The position numbers and the translations under genes are program-made. From contig NZ_CP018082.1 in the NCBI RefSeq assembly GCF_001886715.1, positions 1,240,001-1,304,000 on the forward strand: DNA of 64,000 bases, in the 5' to 3' direction. This document shows positions 53,749 through 64,000 of the stretch, piece after piece. The DNA comes from Nocardia mangyaensis (lineage in GTDB: Bacteria > Actinomycetota > Actinomycetes > Mycobacteriales > Mycobacteriaceae). The notes beneath the pieces are model-generated. The model was not told where the DNA came from, ran no database searches, and saw only the letters and a program-made list of their open reading frames with translations. Position 1 is the stretch's first letter. The number at the start of each line of letters is the position of its first letter.

Positions 53749-54726
53749 CTACTTCGCAGTCTCCGCTGTCCCGAGAAACCCGAGAATCAGCGCCACGACC
53801 TCGACGGGACTGTCGACCTGAACGAAATGCGACGAACGTTCCACCCACCGCAGCTGCGCGTCCGGGATGAGTTCGGCCAGCCGCGCCCCGATCGTCGGCG
53901 ACACCAGTGGGTCCTGCCTGGAGTAGATGAGCTGCAGCGGCACGGGGAACGACCTGCCTTGCGCTGCGCGCTGCGCGAGGGCGGAAGCGAAATCGGCGTG
54001 GTCTCGTGGGTCCATCACATCTCGCAGATAGCTTGCGAAGGCGCGCGTTCCGGCAACGGTCTGCAGCGGCGCACCGTATTCGCCTGCTTCCTCGCGTGAT
54101 TTGAGTGTGTCGTCGTAGTAGTGGACGATCTGATGGGCCCACCGTTGCGTGTCGCGGCGAATCCACCAGCCGAACACGTCCTGTGCGCCGGGCACCGACA
54201 GTGCCGCATGCAGCGCGTACAACCTCGCCTGAGCGAACGCGGGTCCGTGGAGGTTGACCACCTTGGCGAACGCGCCCGGGTCGGCCACGGCCTGACGCAT
54301 GACCAGGTACCCCCCGAGCGAGTTGCCGACCACCCGGCAACCCCGGATACCGACCGCAGCCTGGAACTCGCCGATCCAGGCCCCGAGATCCGTGGCCGAA
54401 AAGCGGTGCGCCGGTGGAGCACTGCGGCCGTTGCCGGGTAGATCGGGCATGATCAGCCGATAGTGCGCACCCAACCCGTCGAGTACATACCGCCAGGAGT
54501 AACTGCTGGTCATGAGGCCGTGGACGAGCAGCAGGGGTTCCCCTGCACCGTACTCCCGGTAATGAACCCGCAGCGGGCCCAGCGACGCGGAATCCAACTC
54601 GATGTCGTGGGCGTCCGCGTCGAAGTACGGATGCGGACAGCGCGGAAGCTCTGGTAGTCGGGCGAATGGCTGCTGCTGGAACGGGCGCAGCGGGCGCTGG
54701 TCCGTGCTGCCGGGCTGGATCGGCAT
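53749..54726 (-). CDS. Alpha/beta hydrolase
   Basis: A 325-residue alpha/beta-hydrolase. Oxyanion LLLVHGLMTSSYSWRYV, nucleophile serine in RVVGNSLGGYLVM, acid in LIYSRQDPLVSP and His in SSHFVQVDSPVEV. It follows the MMPL transporter on the same strand 52 nt downstream, but with its own TTGCA operator in the gap. Since the megasynthase lacks a thioesterase domain, a release or editing thioesterase role is conceivable, or product modification. No signal peptide. Confidence 0.85.
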   Translation of the reverse strand: MPIQPGSTDQRPLRPFQQQPFARLPELPRCPHPYFDADAHDIELDSASLGPLRVHYREYGAGEPLLLVHGLMTSSYSWRYVLDGLGAHYRLIMPDLPGNGRSAPPAHRFSATDLGAWIGEFQAAVGIRGCRVVGNSLGGYLVMRQAVADPGAFAKVVNLHGPAFAQARLYALHAALSVPGAQDVFGWWIRRDTQRWAHQIVHYYDDTLKSREEAGEYGAPLQTVAGTRAFASYLRDVMDPRDHADFASALAQRAAQGRSFPVPLQLIYSRQDPLVSPTIGARLAELIPDAQLRWVERSSHFVQVDSPVEVVALILGFLGTAETAK

Positions 54727-54778: not shown

Positions 54779-56869
54779 TCACCGACGCCGTAAAGGTGTC
54801 CACCAGTTGGCATCGCCCATCAGCTTGACCACAGCAGGTACCAGCAGCATGCGCACGACCGTGGCGTCGATGACGATCGCGATGGCCATACCGAGCGCGG
54901 CCACCTTGATCAGCGCGACGTCAGAAAGCGCGGCAGCACCGGTGACGATGACGAACAGCGCTGCCGCGGCGGTGATCACCCGACCGGTTCGCGACACTCC
55001 CGAGACAACCGATTCCTCGGTGCTCGCACCCTGATCGTGGGCTTCCACCATCCGCGACATCAGGAACACCTCGTAGTCGGTCGACAACCCGAACACCGCC
55101 ATGGTGACCACCACCAGCGCGGGGAGCGGAAGCGGCCCCGGCTCGACGCCGAGCAAGTCGGCCCCGTGACCATCCACGAAGATCCAGGTCAACACGCCGA
55201 ACGTGGCGCCGAGGCTGAGCGCGGCCATCGCGACGGCTTTGAGCGGCAGCACGATCGAGCGGAAACCGAGGAACATCAGCAGCAGAGTCGCCACCAGGAT
55301 CACCGCCACGGCAACCGGGATGCCACGCACAATCGCGTCATAGCTGTCGACCCGCTGTGCGTTCATGCCGCCGATCAGCACGGTGGTGTCGGTGGGCACG
55401 GGAATGGCTCGCAGCGCGCGCACGGTGTTCTCCGCGGCAGGCGCGAAATCCGGTGACTTCAGCAGGGCACGTACCAGCACCCGGTCACCGTCCTCGGCGA
55501 GCCGGACGACCAAGCGTACACCGTCGACTCGTCCGGCTTCAGAGATGACCTGAGCCAGCGCCGCGGGGGAGGGCGGTGCGCCGTTCGCGCCACGGACCAC
55601 CATGGTCGCGCCGTCGGTGGCATTCGGGAAATCGTCCGTGACCGTCTGTTGTGCTTGCCTGGCAGGGTCGTCGGCAGGCAGTCCGTTGGGATTCACACCG
55701 CCGGTCACGATCCCGGCAAGCGGCAGGCTCATCGCCAACAGTACGAGCACGACGATGGCGCTGATCGCCACTGGTTTGCGCATTACGCCGGCTGCGAGGC
55801 GACCCCAGAAGCGTTGCGCCCGTTCCTCACCTCGCCGCGCTGCACCGCGCCGCAGGGGTAGTGCGTCGATCCGGCCGCCGAGCAAGGCGAGAGCGGCAGG
55901 CAGTGCAGTCAGCGCGAGGATCGCCGCGATTGAGATCGCCGCGATCGCACCGTAGCCGAGTGAGCGCAACATTGAGATGGGGAACGCCAGCGAGCCCGCG
56001 AAAGCACAGGCGAGCAGGAGCGCGGAGAAGACGATGGTGCGGCCTGCGGTCTCGATCGTGCGCACCGCGGCCGCGGCGGGCGTGCTGCCCGCGCCGAGTT
56101 CTTCCCGGAAGCGGCTGACCACGAACAGGCTGTAGTCGATCGCCAGGCCGAGGCCGATGATCGAGGCGATATTCAGCGAGAACGCACTGACATCGGTGAA
56201 CATGCTGATCAGGCGCAAGGCACCGAGCGCACCGAATACCGCGAGGCCGCCGATGATCACCGGTGCGGCGGCCGCGACCACCCCACCGAAGATCACCACC
56301 AGCAAGATCAGCATCAAGGGAATGGCCACCGATTCAGCCAGTACCACATCGGTGCGCGACTTGATGTTGTAGGCGGCGGTGAGGGCGGTGTAGCCGGCGA
56401 ACTCGGTCTGCACGCCCGGGACTTTCAGCTGCTCGGCCAGGTCGGGATAATTGCGCAGCTTGGCACCGTCGTCGCCGGTGAGTACGAGCGTGGCCAGCGC
56501 CTTGGTCTGATCGCTGGAGCGCAGCGCGATCTGGCGGATGCCCTGCGCGGTCCAGAACGATTCGGCGGGCGCGGCCAGCAGAGCGGGGTCGATGCCGTTG
56601 ATCCGCGCCAGCACGTCGGGACCGATGTCGCTCAACGTCTTTCCCGCCGGTGCGGTGTACACCACGACGATGTCCGGGCGCTGCCCGCCGGGGGTCGTGC
56701 TGATCAGCTGCTCGGCCTCGGACGACTCGCTGGCCGGGTCGTCATACCCGGCCAGGTTCAGGTTCTGCACTACCCCCAGTCCCCAGATCCCGCTGAGCAG
56801 GAAGACCGAAAGTGCGAGGACGAGAACTAGTCTCGCCCGGTTGATCGTCCATCGGGCCCATACAGTCAT
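54779..56869 (-). CDS. MMPL/RND-family transporter
   Basis: A 696-residue membrane exporter of the MMPL class, which in mycolic-acid bacteria moves lipids and lipopeptides to the envelope. First helix LVLVLALSVFLLSGIWGLGV; then the periplasmic domain with RPDIVVVYTAPAGK; the helix 4 motif IIGLGLAIDYSLFVVSRFREEL, and the second half with VFGLSTDYEVFLMSRMVEAHD. About twelve spans. It lies 16 nt after the megasynthase stop, so it is the likely exporter of that product. Confidence 0.93.
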   Translation of the reverse strand: MTVWARWTINRARLVLVLALSVFLLSGIWGLGVVQNLNLAGYDDPASESSEAEQLISTTPGGQRPDIVVVYTAPAGKTLSDIGPDVLARINGIDPALLAAPAESFWTAQGIRQIALRSSDQTKALATLVLTGDDGAKLRNYPDLAEQLKVPGVQTEFAGYTALTAAYNIKSRTDVVLAESVAIPLMLILLVVIFGGVVAAAAPVIIGGLAVFGALGALRLISMFTDVSAFSLNIASIIGLGLAIDYSLFVVSRFREELGAGSTPAAAAVRTIETAGRTIVFSALLLACAFAGSLAFPISMLRSLGYGAIAAISIAAILALTALPAALALLGGRIDALPLRRGAARRGEERAQRFWGRLAAGVMRKPVAISAIVVLVLLAMSLPLAGIVTGGVNPNGLPADDPARQAQQTVTDDFPNATDGATMVVRGANGAPPSPAALAQVISEAGRVDGVRLVVRLAEDGDRVLVRALLKSPDFAPAAENTVRALRAIPVPTDTTVLIGGMNAQRVDSYDAIVRGIPVAVAVILVATLLLMFLGFRSIVLPLKAVAMAALSLGATFGVLTWIFVDGHGADLLGVEPGPLPLPALVVVTMAVFGLSTDYEVFLMSRMVEAHDQGASTEESVVSGVSRTGRVITAAAALFVIVTGAAALSDVALIKVAALGMAIAIVIDATVVRMLLVPAVVKLMGDANWWTPLRRR

Positions 56870-56885
56870 TTCGCCACCGATTCCG

Positions 56886-59800
56886 TCAGAAGTAATAGAG
56901 TGCGCAGCCGACCTGGACGCCTGCGCCGACCGTGATGATCAGACCGAGGTCACCCGGCCCGGCGAGGTTGGCGCCGCGGCAGTGCCGCAGGGTGGCCGGG
57001 ATCGACGAGGTGAAGAGATCGGGTCCGCCGTCGACGACGTCGACTACCCGAGCGTGCGGCACCCCGATCTTGCCGGCCAGTACGGACAGGAAGTTCGATG
57101 AGATCTGCGGCGCCAGGACGACACCGATGTCGGCCGGCGAGACCGACGCGGTGCGCAGCAGCTCGTCCAGCGCCTCCTCGATGATCTTCAGGTAGATGTC
57201 CTCGATTCCCGGGTCCTGTACGAATTCGAGTCCCGAGGTGCTGTGCACCCGCGTGAAACTCGAGATAGCGTCGAGGTATTCGGGATGGGCGGCGAAGTGG
57301 AAGGCGCCGAATCCGCCTTCTTCGGCACCAGCCACGGTCAGGACAGCGGCGGAGCCGATATGGCGGATACCCCGGCGCGCCGCTGACTCGCTCGGCACCT
57401 CGGGATCGGCTTCGGCGGCGACCACGAGCGCGGCGCGGGTCTGACCCGCTGCGATGGCGGCCGCCGCCGCATAGCAGGCCTTGAGGAATCCGGTGCCGCC
57501 GTCGAACAGGTCCAGTGCCAGTGTCGCCTGCTCGAACGGATCGTCGGGGTCCGGATTGATCGCCAGTCGGTCGGCGACGAAGGTCGCCGTGGCCGGTTCG
57601 ACGAGGTACTCGTCGCGGAACACACCTGCGTAGACGACCAGTCCGACTTCTTCAGCGGCGCAGAAGGATTCATCGAGGCACTGCCTACCTGCCATGGTTG
57701 CGAGGTCGACGGCTCTTTCCTCGCCGGTCGGTGTGGCGAGCGCGACGGCCTCGAACCGCACCCTCGGGCCGGTAGCCGCGGGCGGCCTGCGATCCTCGGG
57801 CACTGGCCTGCGCTCGCCACGACGACCGTCTCGCACCCGGTCGGGCAGGTCATCGACGGTGTACAGGGCCGCACCGACGGTTTGCCCGGAACCGGTGATG
57901 CCGAAAAGGATTCGGTCACCCGATTGCAGATCACCGCTGGCGATCAGATCACCGAGGGCAACGAAATGCGTCGTCGACGCAGTATTTCCGCGATGCTCGA
58001 GATTCGACACGATGTTGCCCTGATGAACGGCGGAGCGCCCGATTGCCCGGTTGATCGTCGCCATCGCATCGTTGATCGAAGCCTGCGAGGTTTGGTGCAC
58101 GATGATGCGGTCCACAGCTTCCGGTTGCCAGCCATGGCGTTCGAGCATCCGCATCGCGAACGGGACCGACTTGCGGACCGCGACAGCGGTCTGCTCGACC
58201 GCCTTGGTCCGCATGATCGCGCCCCCATGCGGCTGATCGGTCCGTTTGCCGATGCACAATTCGCTGTAGCGACTCAGCGTGCGCAGGCGCAGATCGTGGA
58301 AGCCGACGCCAGGCGAGATTCCGCGCTCGAGGATCACAGCCGCGCCGGCGTCACCGACAGTGAGACAGGCCAGCCGATCGTCGAGGAAGTCGGTGATCTC
58401 GCGCTGAGCCGTCGAGATGATGTGCGAGACGTACTCGCCGCTGACCACCATCGCCGTGCGGGCGCGGCCGGTTGCCAGGAACGCATCGGCGATCGCGATG
58501 CCGGTGAACATGCCTGCGCAGGCGTTCGAGACATCGAAGCTCACCGCCGAGGACAGTCCCAGTAGTCCCCGCAGCCGCATCGAGGTGCTCGGCTCAGAGA
58601 TCAACCGACCGTCCGGGCCCTCGTTGTTGGAGATGTTGGTGCAGATCAGCAAGTCGATCTCGGTGGCGGAGTACGCGGAGCCGGCCAGGCATCGAGCGGC
58701 CGCCCGCTCGGCGAGATCAATGGTGAACTCGCCCGGCCCAACGACCCGGCGGGTCACGATGCCGGTCAGCTGTTCCAGTGGAATCTGCACCGGTCGATCA
58801 CATCCGGCGAGCACCGCCGAGGTCGGCAGCACCGTGTCCGGCAGATAGACGCCCAGACTCTCGATCACCGTGTTGCCCACCGCCGCCGGCTGGACCGGCG
58901 CGATCATCGGCTGCGGGTTGGGTTGCGCGGCAACCTCCGACACCGCGAGTTCGGGTACTGCTCCATGATCGACCGCATCGGCGAGCGCGGCCACCGACCG
59001 GTGGCGGAACACCAGCTCCGGTGTCACGGCTATTCCCACATCCCGTGCGGCGGCGCATATCTGCATGGTCTGCGTGGATGCGCCGCCCAACTCGAAGAAG
59101 TCGTCGAATACGCCGACGGTGTCCAGCCCGAGAGTCTGCTGCCACAGCCCGGCCAGCGTCGCCTCGAGTTCCGTGCGCGGGGCCTGGTACACCGACGAGA
59201 TATCGGGACGGGCGGTGTCGGGCTCGGGTAAGGCCCGGTTATCCCGCTTACCCGTCGGCGTGGTTGGGATGTGGTCCAGGAAGACGAATTGCGCCGGGAT
59301 CATCGCGTCGGGCAAGCTGCCGCGCAGCCAGGCGCGCAGGTCAGCGATGCTCGGCCGCGCGTCGAGCTCGCTCGCCACAACGTAGGCGATCAGTCGCGGC
59401 TGGGCGTCACCGCGAACGACGACGGCGGCTGCACGCACCTGCGGACTCGCCGCCAATGCCCCTTCGACCTCACCCAGTTCGATCCGCACGCCGCGAATCT
59501 TGACCTGGTCGTCCGCGCGCCCGAGGTACTCGATTGCGCCGTCGGGCCGATAGCGCGCCTGATCGCCGGTGCGGTACAGCACACCGCGCGGTCCCGCGTC
59601 GACGAATCGTTGCGCAGTCAGCTCGGGTCGGTGCAGATAGCCCTGGGCGACACCGATGCCACCGATGTACAACTCGCCGGCAACACCGACAGGCACCGGA
59701 TTCAGTTGCGCGTCCACAACATGGATCTGGGTGTTGGCGATCGGCCTGCCGATCGGAATGACCGGATCGATATCGTCACGGGCGCAGTCGAAATAGGTCA

Positions 59801-62108
59801 CGTCGATCGCGGCCTCGGTCGGCCCGTACAGGTTGTGCAGCTGGGCGGGCAGCGTCGCGAAGAGTGCGTCGCGCAGGTCCGCGGTCAGTGCCTCACCGCT
59901 GGTGATCACCCGGCGCAGGCTCGTGCACCGCCCGGCGCCGGGGTCGTCGAGAAAGACGCGCAGCATCGACGGCACGAAATGGCTGACCGTCACCCCGTAG
60001 CGGGTGATTGCGTCGACGAGATAGCCGCTGTCGCGATGCCGGTCGGGCTCGGCGACCACGACCCGCGCGCCGGCCAGCAACGGCCATAACAGCTCCCATA
60101 CCGAGACATCGAAGTTGGCGGGCGTCTTGTGCAACACCACATCTCGCTCGCCCAGTGGATAGGCGCGCTGCATCCAGAGCAGCCGATTGGCGATGCCGCG
60201 CTGGGTGTTCACCGCGCCCTTGGGCTGACCGGTGGTGCCCGAGGTGAACATGACGTACGCGGCGGAATCCGGCGTCACCGACTCGACGCGGGGAACGAAC
60301 GTGCTGTCGCCGGGGACCACCTCGTCCACCAGCACTGCGACCGCTTGTGCGGGAAGCCGGTGCTGCACGCGGGAATCGGTGATCCAGACGGTGCTGTCGG
60401 CCTCCTTGCTGATCACCCTCAATCGCTGTGCTGGGTGCCGGGGGTCCACCGGCAGGAACGCACAGCCCGCCGTCAGGACTGCCAGTACCGCGATCACCGA
60501 CAGCTCCGATCGTTCGATCGCGATGCCGACCACATCGCCGGGCCTGGCCCCGGCGGCGTGCACCCGCTCCGCCAGACTCCTGGCACGGTCCCACAGTTGC
60601 TGATAGGTGAGGTCGAGGTCGCCGAAGCTGACCGCGATCGCGGTCGGGGTGCGCGCGATCTGGTCGGTGAACAGGTCGAGGAGCCTGCGGTCACGGAATT
60701 CGGGAACCGCGGTGTCGTTCCAGCGCACCCGTTGCCGTTCTTCGTCGTCGGTCAGCAACGGCACCAGGCCGACCGATTCGGCCGGATTCGCCACCGCCGC
60801 ACCCAGGAAACGGCGCAGGTGCTTGGCGAAGCGGTCGATCATGGCGGTGTCGAACAGGTCGCGGTTGTACTGCAGCACGGCCGACAACGTCTGGTCGCGT
60901 TCGACGACCATCAGCATCAGATCGACCGGAGCCCCGCCCTGGCGCAACGACAGCGGTTCGAAAGCGGGCGCTTCGGCGGCCCCGCTCGCCGACGTGGACG
61001 CCACCGACAAACGTGAGGTCTCCCAGGCGAAGAACACCTGGAACACCGGGGCGAACGCGGGATCACGGCCGGGGACCAGTCGTTGCGCGAGCAGCGCGAA
61101 CGGAAGGTCCTGATGCGCCACGGCATCGAGCACCGTCCTGCGCGTCCGGTCCAGTAGCGTCGTGAAGGACGGATTGTCACCGAGATCGGTGCGCAAGGCC
61201 ACCGAGTTCACGAAGTAGCCGACGATGCGTTCCGATCCCGGCATGTTGCGCCCGGCGACCGGCGAGCCGACGATGATGTCGTCCAGGCCGGAATACCGGT
61301 GCAGGACAGCAATATACGCCGACAGCAGTACAACCTGGAGGGTGACTCCGTTGGCCTGTGCAAGCTCGCGCAACGCCGTGGTCAGGCTCGCATCGATGTC
61401 GAAGGACCTGCTAGCTCCGGCGAAGGTCTGGGTCGCGGGTCGCGGCCGCAGGCCGGGCAGTTCGAGCGGGAGCAGCTCGCCGGCGAGCTGCTCCCGCCAG
61501 TGGTCCCATAGTTCCTCGCCGCGGTCGCTGTCGAGCAGGCTGGTCTGCCACTGCACATAGTCGGCGTATCTGCCCTCGATCTCGGGCAGAGCGGCTGCCG
61601 GATCACGGTAGAGCTCCGACAGTTCTGTGAGCACGATGTCCAGCGACCAGAAATCTACGACGAGGTGCGGCACCGTGAGCACCATGAGGTGTTCATCGGG
61701 TGCCCGCCGCAGCACGGTGACCTGAACCACCGGCCCATCAACCAGGTCGATCGGCGCGTCGAGCGCCGCGTCGAGCCAGTCGTCGAGGCGTTGGGCCGAC
61801 CAGCTCGTCGCATCGAGCGCGCGCACCGGAATCTTCGTGTCCGGGTTCGGCACCGCCACCGGCTCTCCCGCAGACAGCCGGAAGATCGACCCGAGGAGTT
61901 CATGGCGGCGTACCAGGATCGCGAGCGCCGACTCGAGTCGTGCGATATCAATCGGCGTCCCCGAACGGCCTTGGTAGAGCAAGTTGTACGATGAGCTGTC
62001 GGGGGCGAGGACGGAATGGAACCACAGGCCGCGCTCACCATGGGAGAGCTCGCGCTCGGCCCTGGCCCGGAGCAACTGTTGGAGCAACTGACGCTTGTCG
62101 TCGATCAC
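56886..62108 (-). CDS. NRPS (C-A-PCP) fused to an active and an inactive KAS III domain
   Basis: A 1740-residue megasynthase. C domain about 1-440, with the HHxxxDG box altered to PHLVVDF (His148 and Asp152 kept). A domain about 465-960 (FTSGTTGQPKGA, YRTGDQARYRPDG); pocket residues D, V, W, H, I, S, L, I, D match the serine code. PCP with carrier Ser1011 in ELGGASTQTM. Residues about 1080-1435 form a KAS III-type thiolase domain with Cys1197 (SNACAGMF), His1338 (VHQTSQ) and Asn1375 (HRGNT). Residues about 1450-1740 form a second thiolase-fold domain in which these become Gly1538, Pro1667 and a non-Asn. There is no thioesterase domain. GTG start overlaps the upstream PKS stop. Joins a PKS chain to Ser and probably releases or extends it through the KAS III pair, which is inference. 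Confidence 0.93.
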   Translation of the reverse strand: MIDDKRQLLQQLLRARAERELSHGERGLWFHSVLAPDSSSYNLLYQGRSGTPIDIARLESALAILVRRHELLGSIFRLSAGEPVAVPNPDTKIPVRALDATSWSAQRLDDWLDAALDAPIDLVDGPVVQVTVLRRAPDEHLMVLTVPHLVVDFWSLDIVLTELSELYRDPAAALPEIEGRYADYVQWQTSLLDSDRGEELWDHWREQLAGELLPLELPGLRPRPATQTFAGASRSFDIDASLTTALRELAQANGVTLQVVLLSAYIAVLHRYSGLDDIIVGSPVAGRNMPGSERIVGYFVNSVALRTDLGDNPSFTTLLDRTRRTVLDAVAHQDLPFALLAQRLVPGRDPAFAPVFQVFFAWETSRLSVASTSASGAAEAPAFEPLSLRQGGAPVDLMLMVVERDQTLSAVLQYNRDLFDTAMIDRFAKHLRRFLGAAVANPAESVGLVPLLTDDEERQRVRWNDTAVPEFRDRRLLDLFTDQIARTPTAIAVSFGDLDLTYQQLWDRARSLAERVHAAGARPGDVVGIAIERSELSVIAVLAVLTAGCAFLPVDPRHPAQRLRVISKEADSTVWITDSRVQHRLPAQAVAVLVDEVVPGDSTFVPRVESVTPDSAAYVMFTSGTTGQPKGAVNTQRGIANRLLWMQRAYPLGERDVVLHKTPANFDVSVWELLWPLLAGARVVVAEPDRHRDSGYLVDAITRYGVTVSHFVPSMLRVFLDDPGAGRCTSLRRVITSGEALTADLRDALFATLPAQLHNLYGPTEAAIDVTYFDCARDDIDPVIPIGRPIANTQIHVVDAQLNPVPVGVAGELYIGGIGVAQGYLHRPELTAQRFVDAGPRGVLYRTGDQARYRPDGAIEYLGRADDQVKIRGVRIELGEVEGALAASPQVRAAAVVVRGDAQPRLIAYVVASELDARPSIADLRAWLRGSLPDAMIPAQFVFLDHIPTTPTGKRDNRALPEPDTARPDISSVYQAPRTELEATLAGLWQQTLGLDTVGVFDDFFELGGASTQTMQICAAARDVGIAVTPELVFRHRSVAALADAVDHGAVPELAVSEVAAQPNPQPMIAPVQPAAVGNTVIESLGVYLPDTVLPTSAVLAGCDRPVQIPLEQLTGIVTRRVVGPGEFTIDLAERAAARCLAGSAYSATEIDLLICTNISNNEGPDGRLISEPSTSMRLRGLLGLSSAVSFDVSNACAGMFTGIAIADAFLATGRARTAMVVSGEYVSHIISTAQREITDFLDDRLACLTVGDAGAAVILERGISPGVGFHDLRLRTLSRYSELCIGKRTDQPHGGAIMRTKAVEQTAVAVRKSVPFAMRMLERHGWQPEAVDRIIVHQTSQASINDAMATINRAIGRSAVHQGNIVSNLEHRGNTASTTHFVALGDLIASGDLQSGDRILFGITGSGQTVGAALYTVDDLPDRVRDGRRGERRPVPEDRRPPAATGPRVRFEAVALATPTGEERAVDLATMAGRQCLDESFCAAEEVGLVVYAGVFRDEYLVEPATATFVADRLAINPDPDDPFEQATLALDLFDGGTGFLKACYAAAAAIAAGQTRAALVVAAEADPEVPSESAARRGIRHIGSAAVLTVAGAEEGGFGAFHFAAHPEYLDAISSFTRVHSTSGLEFVQDPGIEDIYLKIIEEALDELLRTASVSPADIGVVLAPQISSNFLSVLAGKIGVPHARVVDVVDGGPDLFTSSIPATLRHCRGANLAGPGDLGLIITVGAGVQVGCALYYF

Positions 62109-64000
62109 GAGCTTTCTCCCTCGCTGGTGAGCATCTGGGCCAGCAGCTCCTCGACCGCATGGTCGGAGAGTTCGTCCAAGTCGGCCAGCAGTTCGACGGC
62201 ACGCTGATCGTCGATGCCGCCTTGCGGTGTTCTGGCGGCAGGCGCGGCGCCCACCGCCGGTTCGCGATCGAGAACAGTCAGCAGCCAGTCGGCGAACTCG
62301 GTGACGCTCGGTCCTGCCAGCAGCTTGACCACAGGCACGGTGACCGGCAGATCGCGTTCGATACGGGTACGCAGTTCCATCGCGCCAATCGAGTCCAACC
62401 CCAGATATCGCAGCGGCCGATCGCGATCGAAGCTCTCGACGTCGGCGCCCAACCTGCGGGCGATCACCTCGGTGACGTAGCCCGAGAGGACCGCGCCACG
62501 ATCTGCCGGCGCCACGGCCCGCAGTCGGTCGAGCACATCGCTCGATGAGCCTGAATCTACTTCGGCCACAAGAAGGTCCGTGAATCGGGGCAGTGCGGCG
62601 AGACCAGACGGCAATGCTCCGTCGATGGGCAGGACCAGGGCGTGCACCGGGTCGGCCACCATGATCCGATCGAGGGCCGCCAGACCATCAACGGGGGCAA
62701 TGGTGCCGAGGCCGAGGCCACCGACATGGGCGGCGCGCTGCCCGGTGGCGGCCAATCCCACCTCGCGCCACGGACCCCACGCGATGCTCGTGCCGGGTAA
62801 TCCGCGCCCGCGGCGGTAGGCGGCCAGTTCGTCGAGAAAGGCATTCGCCGCGGCGTAGTTGCTCTGGCCCGGGGAACCGAGCACACCGGCCGCCGAGGAG
62901 AAGTAGACCATGAAGTCCAGGGTGTGGTGATGGGTCGCGGTATGTAGGTGCCAGGCTCCGTTGACCTTCGGCCTCAGCACCGCGGCCAGCGAATCCGCGT
63001 CCTGCCGATCGATGATCGCGTCGGCCAGAGTGCCTGCCGCGTGCACGATTCCGCGCAGCGGCGGCCCGTCGGCATCGATCCGCGCCACCAGGGCGGTCAC
63101 GTCGTCACGACGGCCGACATCGGTCGTGCTCGTCGTCACCCGCACGCCGCTCGCGCGGAATCCCGCGATCGCAGCCTCGGCATGTGTGCTGGGCGCACTC
63201 CGGCCCGCCAGCACAAGATGCCTGGCACCACGCCGGATCAACAGTTCCGCGACCGCGAGGCCGAGTCCGCCGAGTCCGCCGGTCACTAGATACTTTGCGT
63301 CACCAGACAAGTGCAGCCGGTCCGCCAAGATGTCGGGCGCGGATTCGGCGGTGATGACCACCTTGCCGATCTGCCCGGCCTTCGCCATGAAGCGGAACGC
63401 GTCCTCGGCCTGCGATATCCGGAATGTCGTCACCGGCAGAGGTGTCAGCTCACCCGTACCGGCGAGCCGGAGGACTTCCCGCAACATCGCGCCAACGGCG
63501 GCAGGCCGCTCGACGGCCATGGCTGCGATGTCGACGGTGAAGTGCGCGATATTGCGTCGCAGCTGCCACAGGTCGATCGAGCGCTTCTCCACGACATCGC
63601 GTTTGCCGATCTCGATGAACCTGCCGTACGGGGCAAGCACGGCGAGACTGCTGCGGATCGCAGCTCCCGACAGTGAGTTCAGGACCACATCGACCCCGGC
63701 CCCGCCGGTGCTCACGCGAATCTGTTCGGCGAAGTCCAGCGACCGCGAGTCCATCACGTGCTCGATACCGAGCGAGCGCAGATAGTCGCGCTTGGCCGGA
63801 CTTCCCGCCGTGGCGTGGATCTCGGCACCGACCCTCTGGGCGAGCGCGACGGCGGCCAGCCCAACACCACCGGTCGCCGCGTGGATGAGTACCCGCTCCC
63901 CCTTGCGCAGCCGGGCCAGCTCGCACAACGCGTGATAGGCGGTCACGTAGGCGATCGGGACGCTGGCCGCCGCGACCGGATCCAGCGACTCGGGCACGGG
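62105..64000 (-). CDS. Reducing type I polyketide synthase, C-terminal end (ER-KR-ACP), cut by window
   Basis: About 630 visible residues; the gene continues beyond 64000. In order: enoylreductase (LIHAATGGVGLAAVALAQRVGA; VLNSLSGAAI), ketoreductase with YLVTGGLGGLGLAVAELL and catalytic Tyr in SSAAGVLGSPGQSNYAAANAFL (the LDD segment reads LAD, suggesting B-type), and an ACP with Ser in YLGLDSIGAMELR. It ends in a docking-like acidic/helical tail (AVELLADLDELSDHAVEELLAQML). ER together with KR means a largely saturated chain unit. GTGA overlap passes the chain to the NRPS protein. Confidence 0.93.
   Translation of the reverse strand, partial: PVPESLDPVAAASVPIAYVTAYHALCELARLRKGERVLIHAATGGVGLAAVALAQRVGAEIHATAGSPAKRDYLRSLGIEHVMDSRSLDFAEQIRVSTGGAGVDVVLNSLSGAAIRSSLAVLAPYGRFIEIGKRDVVEKRSIDLWQLRRNIAHFTVDIAAMAVERPAAVGAMLREVLRLAGTGELTPLPVTTFRISQAEDAFRFMAKAGQIGKVVITAESAPDILADRLHLSGDAKYLVTGGLGGLGLAVAELLIRRGARHLVLAGRSAPSTHAEAAIAGFRASGVRVTTSTTDVGRRDDVTALVARIDADGPPLRGIVHAAGTLADAIIDRQDADSLAAVLRPKVNGAWHLHTATHHHTLDFMVYFSSAAGVLGSPGQSNYAAANAFLDELAAYRRGRGLPGTSIAWGPWREVGLAATGQRAAHVGGLGLGTIAPVDGLAALDRIMVADPVHALVLPIDGALPSGLAALPRFTDLLVAEVDSGSSSDVLDRLRAVAPADRGAVLSGYVTEVIARRLGADVESFDRDRPLRYLGLDSIGAMELRTRIERDLPVTVPVVKLLAGPSVTEFADWLLTVLDREPAVGAAPAARTPQGGIDDQRAVELLADLDELSDHAVEELLAQMLTSEGESS

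Follow-up and report, generated by a model that had tools for sequence, protein, structure and literature searches.

A Nocardia assembly line that ends in a fused pair of active and Cys-less KAS III-type domains

We analysed a 64,000-nucleotide stretch of DNA (the window), bases 1240001-1304000 of the single-contig 7.31-Mb genome of Nocardia mangyaensis, in which one minus-strand gene (56886..62108) encodes a megasynthase of 1740 amino acids (aa). The protein carries condensation (C), adenylation (A) and peptidyl carrier protein (PCP) domains of a nonribosomal peptide synthetase (NRPS) and ends in two domains of the β-ketoacyl synthase III (KAS III) fold, the second of which lacks the catalytic Cys. 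The architecture is real and widespread, is undescribed as far as open papers show, and is of the LstAB/OleA kind, named after the lipstatin proteins LstA and LstB of Streptomyces toxytricini and after OleA, the head-to-head Claisen thiolase of Xanthomonas campestris. The terminal tandem is probably a KAS III pair of the LstA/LstB (OleA-like) type, its halves joined covalently and working in cis on the product bound to the carrier protein.

Anatomy of the megasynthase and its terminal pair

Domain searches placed the whole arrangement in a single frame on the minus strand. The condensation domain (residues 20-459; 60732..62051) is followed by an adenylation domain (residues 480-954 including its C-terminal part; 59247..60671) and a PCP (residues 984-1046; 58971..59159) whose LGGAS motif holds the phosphopantetheine Ser. 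Behind the PCP lie KAS III domain 1, the LstA-like active half (residues 1074-1433; 57810..58889), a linker (residues 1434-1447; 57768..57809; mean predicted local distance difference test score 57 at 1434-1443) and KAS III-like domain 2, the LstB-like Cys-less half (residues 1448-1740; 56889..57767). No thioesterase or reductase family was detected in the NRPS at E 0.001, and the protein ends with the two KAS III-fold domains. An earlier reading, made from the DNA letters alone (the sequence-only reading), had described this same order of domains in one frame and the missing thioesterase, and the searches agree with it.

A search with the tandem returned 390 protein matches, own included; residue counts come from the 120 listed, the protein in the window among them. 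Alignment confirmed the assignment of Cys1197, His1338 and Asn1375 to domain 1, and in domain 2 it gave Gly1538 and Pro1667 at the first two of these places and Asp1697 at the third, where the sequence-only reading had given only a residue other than Asn. That reading had overlooked Glu1504-Pro1505 of domain 2; a Glu-Pro is present in both halves of the tandem, as Glu1172-Pro1173 in domain 1. The Cys, His and Asn of domain 1 and the Glu-Pro of domain 2 are invariant (120/120). The residue at the Cys place of domain 2 is A in 99 proteins, G in 9, S in 7, P in 3, N in 1 and D in 1, and never Cys, so a full Cys-His-Asn set in the second region occurs in none of them. Aligning the window with tandems from named contigs, 50 of the 80 loci described below, showed no variation at these positions either; another alignment covered 37 of those 51. 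The segment around the Glu reads RDEYLVEPATA in domain 2, RDYLEPSTA (EPSTAS) in OleA and RFPSTA in the FabH 2ebd.

The structure prediction that the sequence-only reading had proposed for the tandem reached a predicted template modelling score (pTM) of 0.94. The Glu loop (1498-1507) was weak (mean 63) when domain 2 was modelled alone, whereas residues 1494-1503 and 1504-1513 scored 88 and 95 in the tandem model.

The condensation motif is HHIAVDFWS in 94 of the 120 proteins, and PHLVVDFWS in the window. The adenylation code is DVWHISLIDK, read at what we take to be the GrsA code positions and presumably of Ser type. Codes printed for 115 of the 120 proteins comprise 71 of Ser type, 39 resembling DAAHTGEITK and 5 others, and the amino acid used therefore probably varies across the family. 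The DAAHTGEITK code and its variants (39/115) were matched to no amino acid.

Kinship, split pairs and distribution

Both halves match the fold of OleA. A quick-search tree of 69 rows, which took in 20 of the 51 tandems and 12 of the 21 split loci and was built without LstA, LstB, PqsB and PqsC, joined domain 1 with the separate A proteins in one group and domain 2 with the separate B proteins in another (SH-aLRT 99 each), and set OleA with the groups of both halves against FabH (SH-aLRT 100). Long branches were flagged in it for OleA, for domain 2 of loci L106 and L104 and for L093 with domain 2 of L095, so its inner order is unsure. Because domains 1 and 2 group with different stand-alone families in this tree, a recent tandem duplication is ruled out.

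The stand-alone genes bear on the role of the Glu. Cys-His-Asn is complete in all 21 stand-alone A genes examined, and in 6 of the 21 their own Glu is Ala; stand-alone B genes keep the Glu in 20 of the 20 examined, including the partners of the six Ala-type A genes. The partner Glu therefore looks indispensable, and this asymmetry is the expected outcome of a base supplied by the partner. A search for B-type proteins, with the B gene of a split pair from the same genome as query, gave 218 matches; the 120 listed, each some 300 aa long, all have a Glu at residue 55-58 and never Cys in the Cys place. A purely structural role for the inactive half is disfavoured: its Glu is invariant, and the Glu of the other half is dispensable in some split pairs.

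The N. mangyaensis genome itself holds two split pairs of adjacent A and B genes. After one (L012:9711-17769; C1 ~3789710-3797768) come genes for an OleC-family ligase and an OleD-like reductase and, past a gap, an MmpL gene, and by its gene content the stretch looks like a nocardiolactone-type cluster. Unlike the tandem, pairs of this nocardiolactone (nlt) type in Nocardia have no NRPS fusion and a predicted β-lactone product. A nocardiolactone cluster is mentioned in an excerpt of PMC7413640. Beside the second pair (L011:8272-13252), an acyl-CoA-synthetase-type gene scores 143 bits as OleC family against a cut-off of 478. Elsewhere in the genome, a 14,883-aa open frame (C1 ~6443050-6487107, minus strand) has many NRPS-type matches. 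At another locus, two different B-type genes (L113:185 and L113:11062) lie about 10 kb apart around one A gene, and one of them has Lys for a conserved Arg.

The best 80 of 131 relatives in named genomes were kept as loci, with forms assigned by length and motifs. A neighbourhood search for the architecture, also suggested by the sequence-only reading, found carrier-fused tandems at 46 loci, where adenylation and carrier sequence longer than 900 aa precedes the tandem in one frame (four checked with Pfam). The tandem is fused but free-standing at a further 26 loci, of which L074 lies at a contig end; at 5 the genes are split, and the remaining 3 are truncated or incomplete. Carrier-fused forms occur in Nocardia, Mycobacterium and its sister genera, Planctomycetota, Acidobacteriota and an unclassified metagenome-assembled genome; free-standing tandems occur in Bacteroidota, Lentisphaeria, Rhodopirellula and others. 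The closest named relatives among the matches listed are from Nocardia (58-78% over the tandem). In the genus group of N. mangyaensis, taken as Nocardia, the fused form is present in 6 of 148 genomes, own included (E <= 7.4e-260; frames of at least 1787 aa); 116 of the 148 have some match at E 1e-20, the non-fused ones at far lower scores, and those inspected are split pairs. Across the order, 7 of 397 genomes, own included and from 2 of 85 genera, match at E 1e-100, and the trait is therefore sporadic.

The linkage to upstream modules varies. L070 has the order FAAL-ACP-C-A-PCP-KAS-KAS' (FAAL, fatty acyl-AMP ligase), and in L095 C-A-PCP is encoded by a gene of its own, which overlaps that of the tandem. 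Two Planctomycetota loci (L086, L090) read FAAL-ACP-(remnant)-KAS-KAS', without a working amino-acid module, and a plain fatty acyl chain would therefore reach their KAS pair. Their remnant consists of an adenylation C-terminus and a carrier-like stretch in which GGxS is GGGA (by eye), an apparent loss of the amino-acid module.

Neighbouring genes

Upstream of the megasynthase lies a polyketide synthase (PKS) gene on the same strand, of which the 3' part (ER-KR-ACP; 62105..64000) falls within the window and whose stop overlaps the GTG start of the NRPS gene as GTGA. The whole gene (L009 105-8540) encodes 2811 aa with an AMP-binding domain, ACP, KS, AT, DH, ER, KR and ACP. The AMP-binding domain appears to be FAAL-type, as a carrier protein directly follows it; the AT has an IASH motif, which we take to fit methylmalonyl. 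Within flanks of up to 10 kb, 41 of the 46 carrier-fused loci have a PKS ketosynthase homologue and 36 a FAAL homologue, 34 of these at >=40% identity; the two at 25-26% (L069, L105) are probably matches to the A domain.

Next after the NRPS gene is one for an MmpL-family transporter of 696 aa (54779..56869, minus strand). Its only other match in the genome at E <= 1e-150 (49%) lies in the stretch of the split pair L012, beside OleC-family and OleD-like genes, which suggests an exported lipid. An α/β hydrolase gene follows (325 aa; 53749..54726, minus strand), with a Ser nucleophile elbow, GNSLGG; the enzyme is presumably not OleB-like in its nucleophile. Hydrolase homologues (63-70% identical) are present in four of the five other Nocardia-group fusion genomes, three beside the cluster and one, in G105, about 250 kb away. 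An MmpL gene within 1.6 kb of the NRPS, with the hydrolase beyond, is found in 4 of the 6 fusion genomes; in the other two, G105 and G112, about 13 kb separate the best MmpL from the NRPS, and G112 has no hydrolase match.

At three loci (L066, L097 and L110) homologues of OleB, OleC and OleD adjoin the tandem; in L066 the NCBIfam model PRK09274 scores 700 bits, above its cut-off of 478. A match to the short-chain dehydrogenase/reductase family lies <=120 nt downstream in 24 of the 46 carrier-fused loci, 17 of the 24 in Mycolicibacter. With this skew, and with the reductases of L037 and L068 and the Nocardia loci considered below, an OleD-like reductase is ruled out as a constant partner.

Other genes recur beside the tandem in Bacteroidota. 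Loci of the L064, L081 and L094 type share a FAAL, a luciferase-like protein of 435 aa, a PKS, an NRPS-like gene, the tandem, and P450-like and phosphopantetheinyl-transferase-like genes (the luciferase, P450 and transferase names are our own reading). A 491-aa protein (L066:8487-9959) matches nothing in Pfam at E 1e-5 or in NCBIfam at E 1e-15; three other Bacteroidota loci (L082, L110 and L112) also have it near the tandem, with 59-65% conservation.

Proposed chemistry of the pair and competing explanations

The LstA/LstB pair shares with the tandem an active Cys-His-Asn half and a partner half with a Glu. LstA C128 and H271 and LstB E60 are required, E60A is inactive, and the two proteins are soluble only as a pair (excerpt of PMC12141560). 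LstA and LstB are separate proteins that join two acyl-CoAs, whereas the tandem is one chain fused to a PCP whose predicted load is acyl-Ser; A and B, adjacent genes at L011 and L012, are here one fused frame. In OleA, which has the fold and the Glu-Pro motif in common with both halves, the Glu of one subunit, with Pro next to it, is the general base in the active site of the other (part of PMC7064751). The two sites of the OleA homodimer are identical, however, whereas one site of the tandem is dead, with Gly at the Cys place.

On the anatomy, residue conservation, kinship and gene neighbourhood observed here, we infer the following steps and product. The FAAL-PKS would build an acyl chain, and the C-A-PCP module, judging by its domains, would couple it to L-Ser. 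The acyl-Ser chain, or a partner acyl-CoA, would then be transferred to Cys1197 of domain 1. By analogy with OleA and LstAB, Glu1504 of domain 2 would cross the pseudo-dimer interface and deprotonate the α carbon of the other thioester, and the carbanion would attack the Cys-bound acyl group with no malonyl carboxyl lost. The new C-C bond would free the chain as a β-keto thioester or acid; with CO2 loss and a Ser unit, either carbanion donor would lead to a 2-(acylamino)-1-hydroxy-3-alkanone, a skeleton of the 3-ketoceramide type, and the adjacent MmpL may export the lipid.

The sequence-only reading had proposed a covalent pseudo-heterodimer of the PqsBC kind. Its first half is supported, as fused active and inactive halves occupy the place of a thioesterase; the comparison with PqsBC does not. 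PqsB and PqsC likewise combine an active and a catalytically empty KAS III half in a FabH-like pseudo-dimer. They are separate proteins, however, and PqsC has Val (V299) for the catalytic Asn and PqsB no catalytic residue at all (excerpt of PMC4807248), whereas Asn1375 and the partner Glu1504 are invariant here, the latter a putative catalytic residue by analogy with LstB. Kinship with PqsBC is rejected on these residues; PqsB chains did not figure among the 50 matches listed for domain 2, which carries no weight either way. It is very improbable that, as in PqsBC, the inactive half serves purely as a structural partner and condensation of an acyl chain with a β-keto acid falls to the active half.

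Alternatively, acyl-Ser on Cys1197 could be condensed with a malonyl unit or a β-keto chain, as in FabH or MxnB, for decarboxylative extension or ring release (tetramate, pyrone or similar). We take MxnB and CorB to be single stand-alone enzymes; they share with the tandem the joining of two assembly-line chains at release, but have no inactive half and no PCP in cis, whereas in the tandem a Cys-less half forms part of the NRPS frame. Fusion of two polyketide chains by these KAS III homologues is known, as is tetronate formation by FabH-like enzymes (part of PMC12304814), and the complete Cys-His-Asn of domain 1 is what malonyl decarboxylation in FabH requires (excerpt of PMC4807248). Such chemistry has no need of a Cys-less partner half, however, and the invariant partner Glu-Pro is an OleA/LstB feature missing from the aligned FabH segment, which leaves this option unlikely.

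Some KAS III homologues, such as those of the CerJ/ChlB3 type, transfer acyl groups, and the pair might in that manner pass acyl-Ser from the PCP to Cys1197 and from there to an acceptor hydroxyl or amine, without forming a C-C bond. ChlB3 (7eqi) is a weak PDB match to domain 1 (E 5e-6), and in L060 the gene after the NRPS is glycosyltransferase-like; but the conserved partner Glu has no obvious role in transfer, Cys-His-Asn is complete, and the OleBCD or OleC/OleD-type neighbours at some loci act on Claisen products. We regard simple transfer as improbable.

Several observations weigh against an LstAB/OleA-type condensation. The Cys-His-Asn set is also the decarboxylative FabH triad, and FabHs are the top plain-sequence PDB matches of domain 1 (phmmer, best FabH 89 bits, OleA 61 bits); the VIA comparison of domain 1 placed PqsD, OleA and FabH within a tie. 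In the tree, the long branch of OleA was flagged, and the order in which OleA and the two halves part is not firm. Glu1172 of domain 1 is kept in 120/120 listed fused proteins, which is unexplained if the partner Glu alone counts, and Glu1504 was matched to LstB E60, its putative counterpart, by motif and position only. Ole-B-C-D sets lie nearby in only 3 of 80 loci, and L066 and L097 are close relatives. At L066 the OleD model scores 416, below its cut-off of 580, and OleB is recognized only as a haloalkane dehalogenase (171, below 241). For the two mycobacterial-type reductases checked, those of L037 and L068, the HpnA-like score exceeds the OleD score, and the window and two Nocardia loci (L035, L041) have neither an OleB-C-D set nor an OleD-like reductase. 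The LstA/LstB-type pair acting in cis is the reading that we favour.

A more tentative and, in our view, somewhat doubtful extension is that these clusters form an assembly-line route to N-acyl-3-ketosphinganine-type lipids in Nocardia and mycobacteria without serine palmitoyltransferase: a PKS-built acyl chain joined to Ser would undergo an in-line LstAB-type Claisen reaction with a second acyl-CoA, and CO2 would be lost. Non-Ser A domains would then give analogous acylamino ketones or acids.

The sequence-only reading knew of no assembly line with this ending, and no description of a C-A-PCP-KASIII-KASIII architecture was found in open papers, most subscription journals lying outside the search. 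Fusion of two chains through a C-C bond is a rare assembly-line ending (part of PMC12304814). The tandem offers a rule by which such endings may be recognized, a Cys-less KAS III half with Glu-Pro, and a predicted lipid class for orphan clusters of Nocardia and mycobacteria. Split, fused and carrier-linked pairs, with the FAAL-ACP-linked pair beside them, form a natural series in which to study pseudo-enzymes that keep one catalytic residue.
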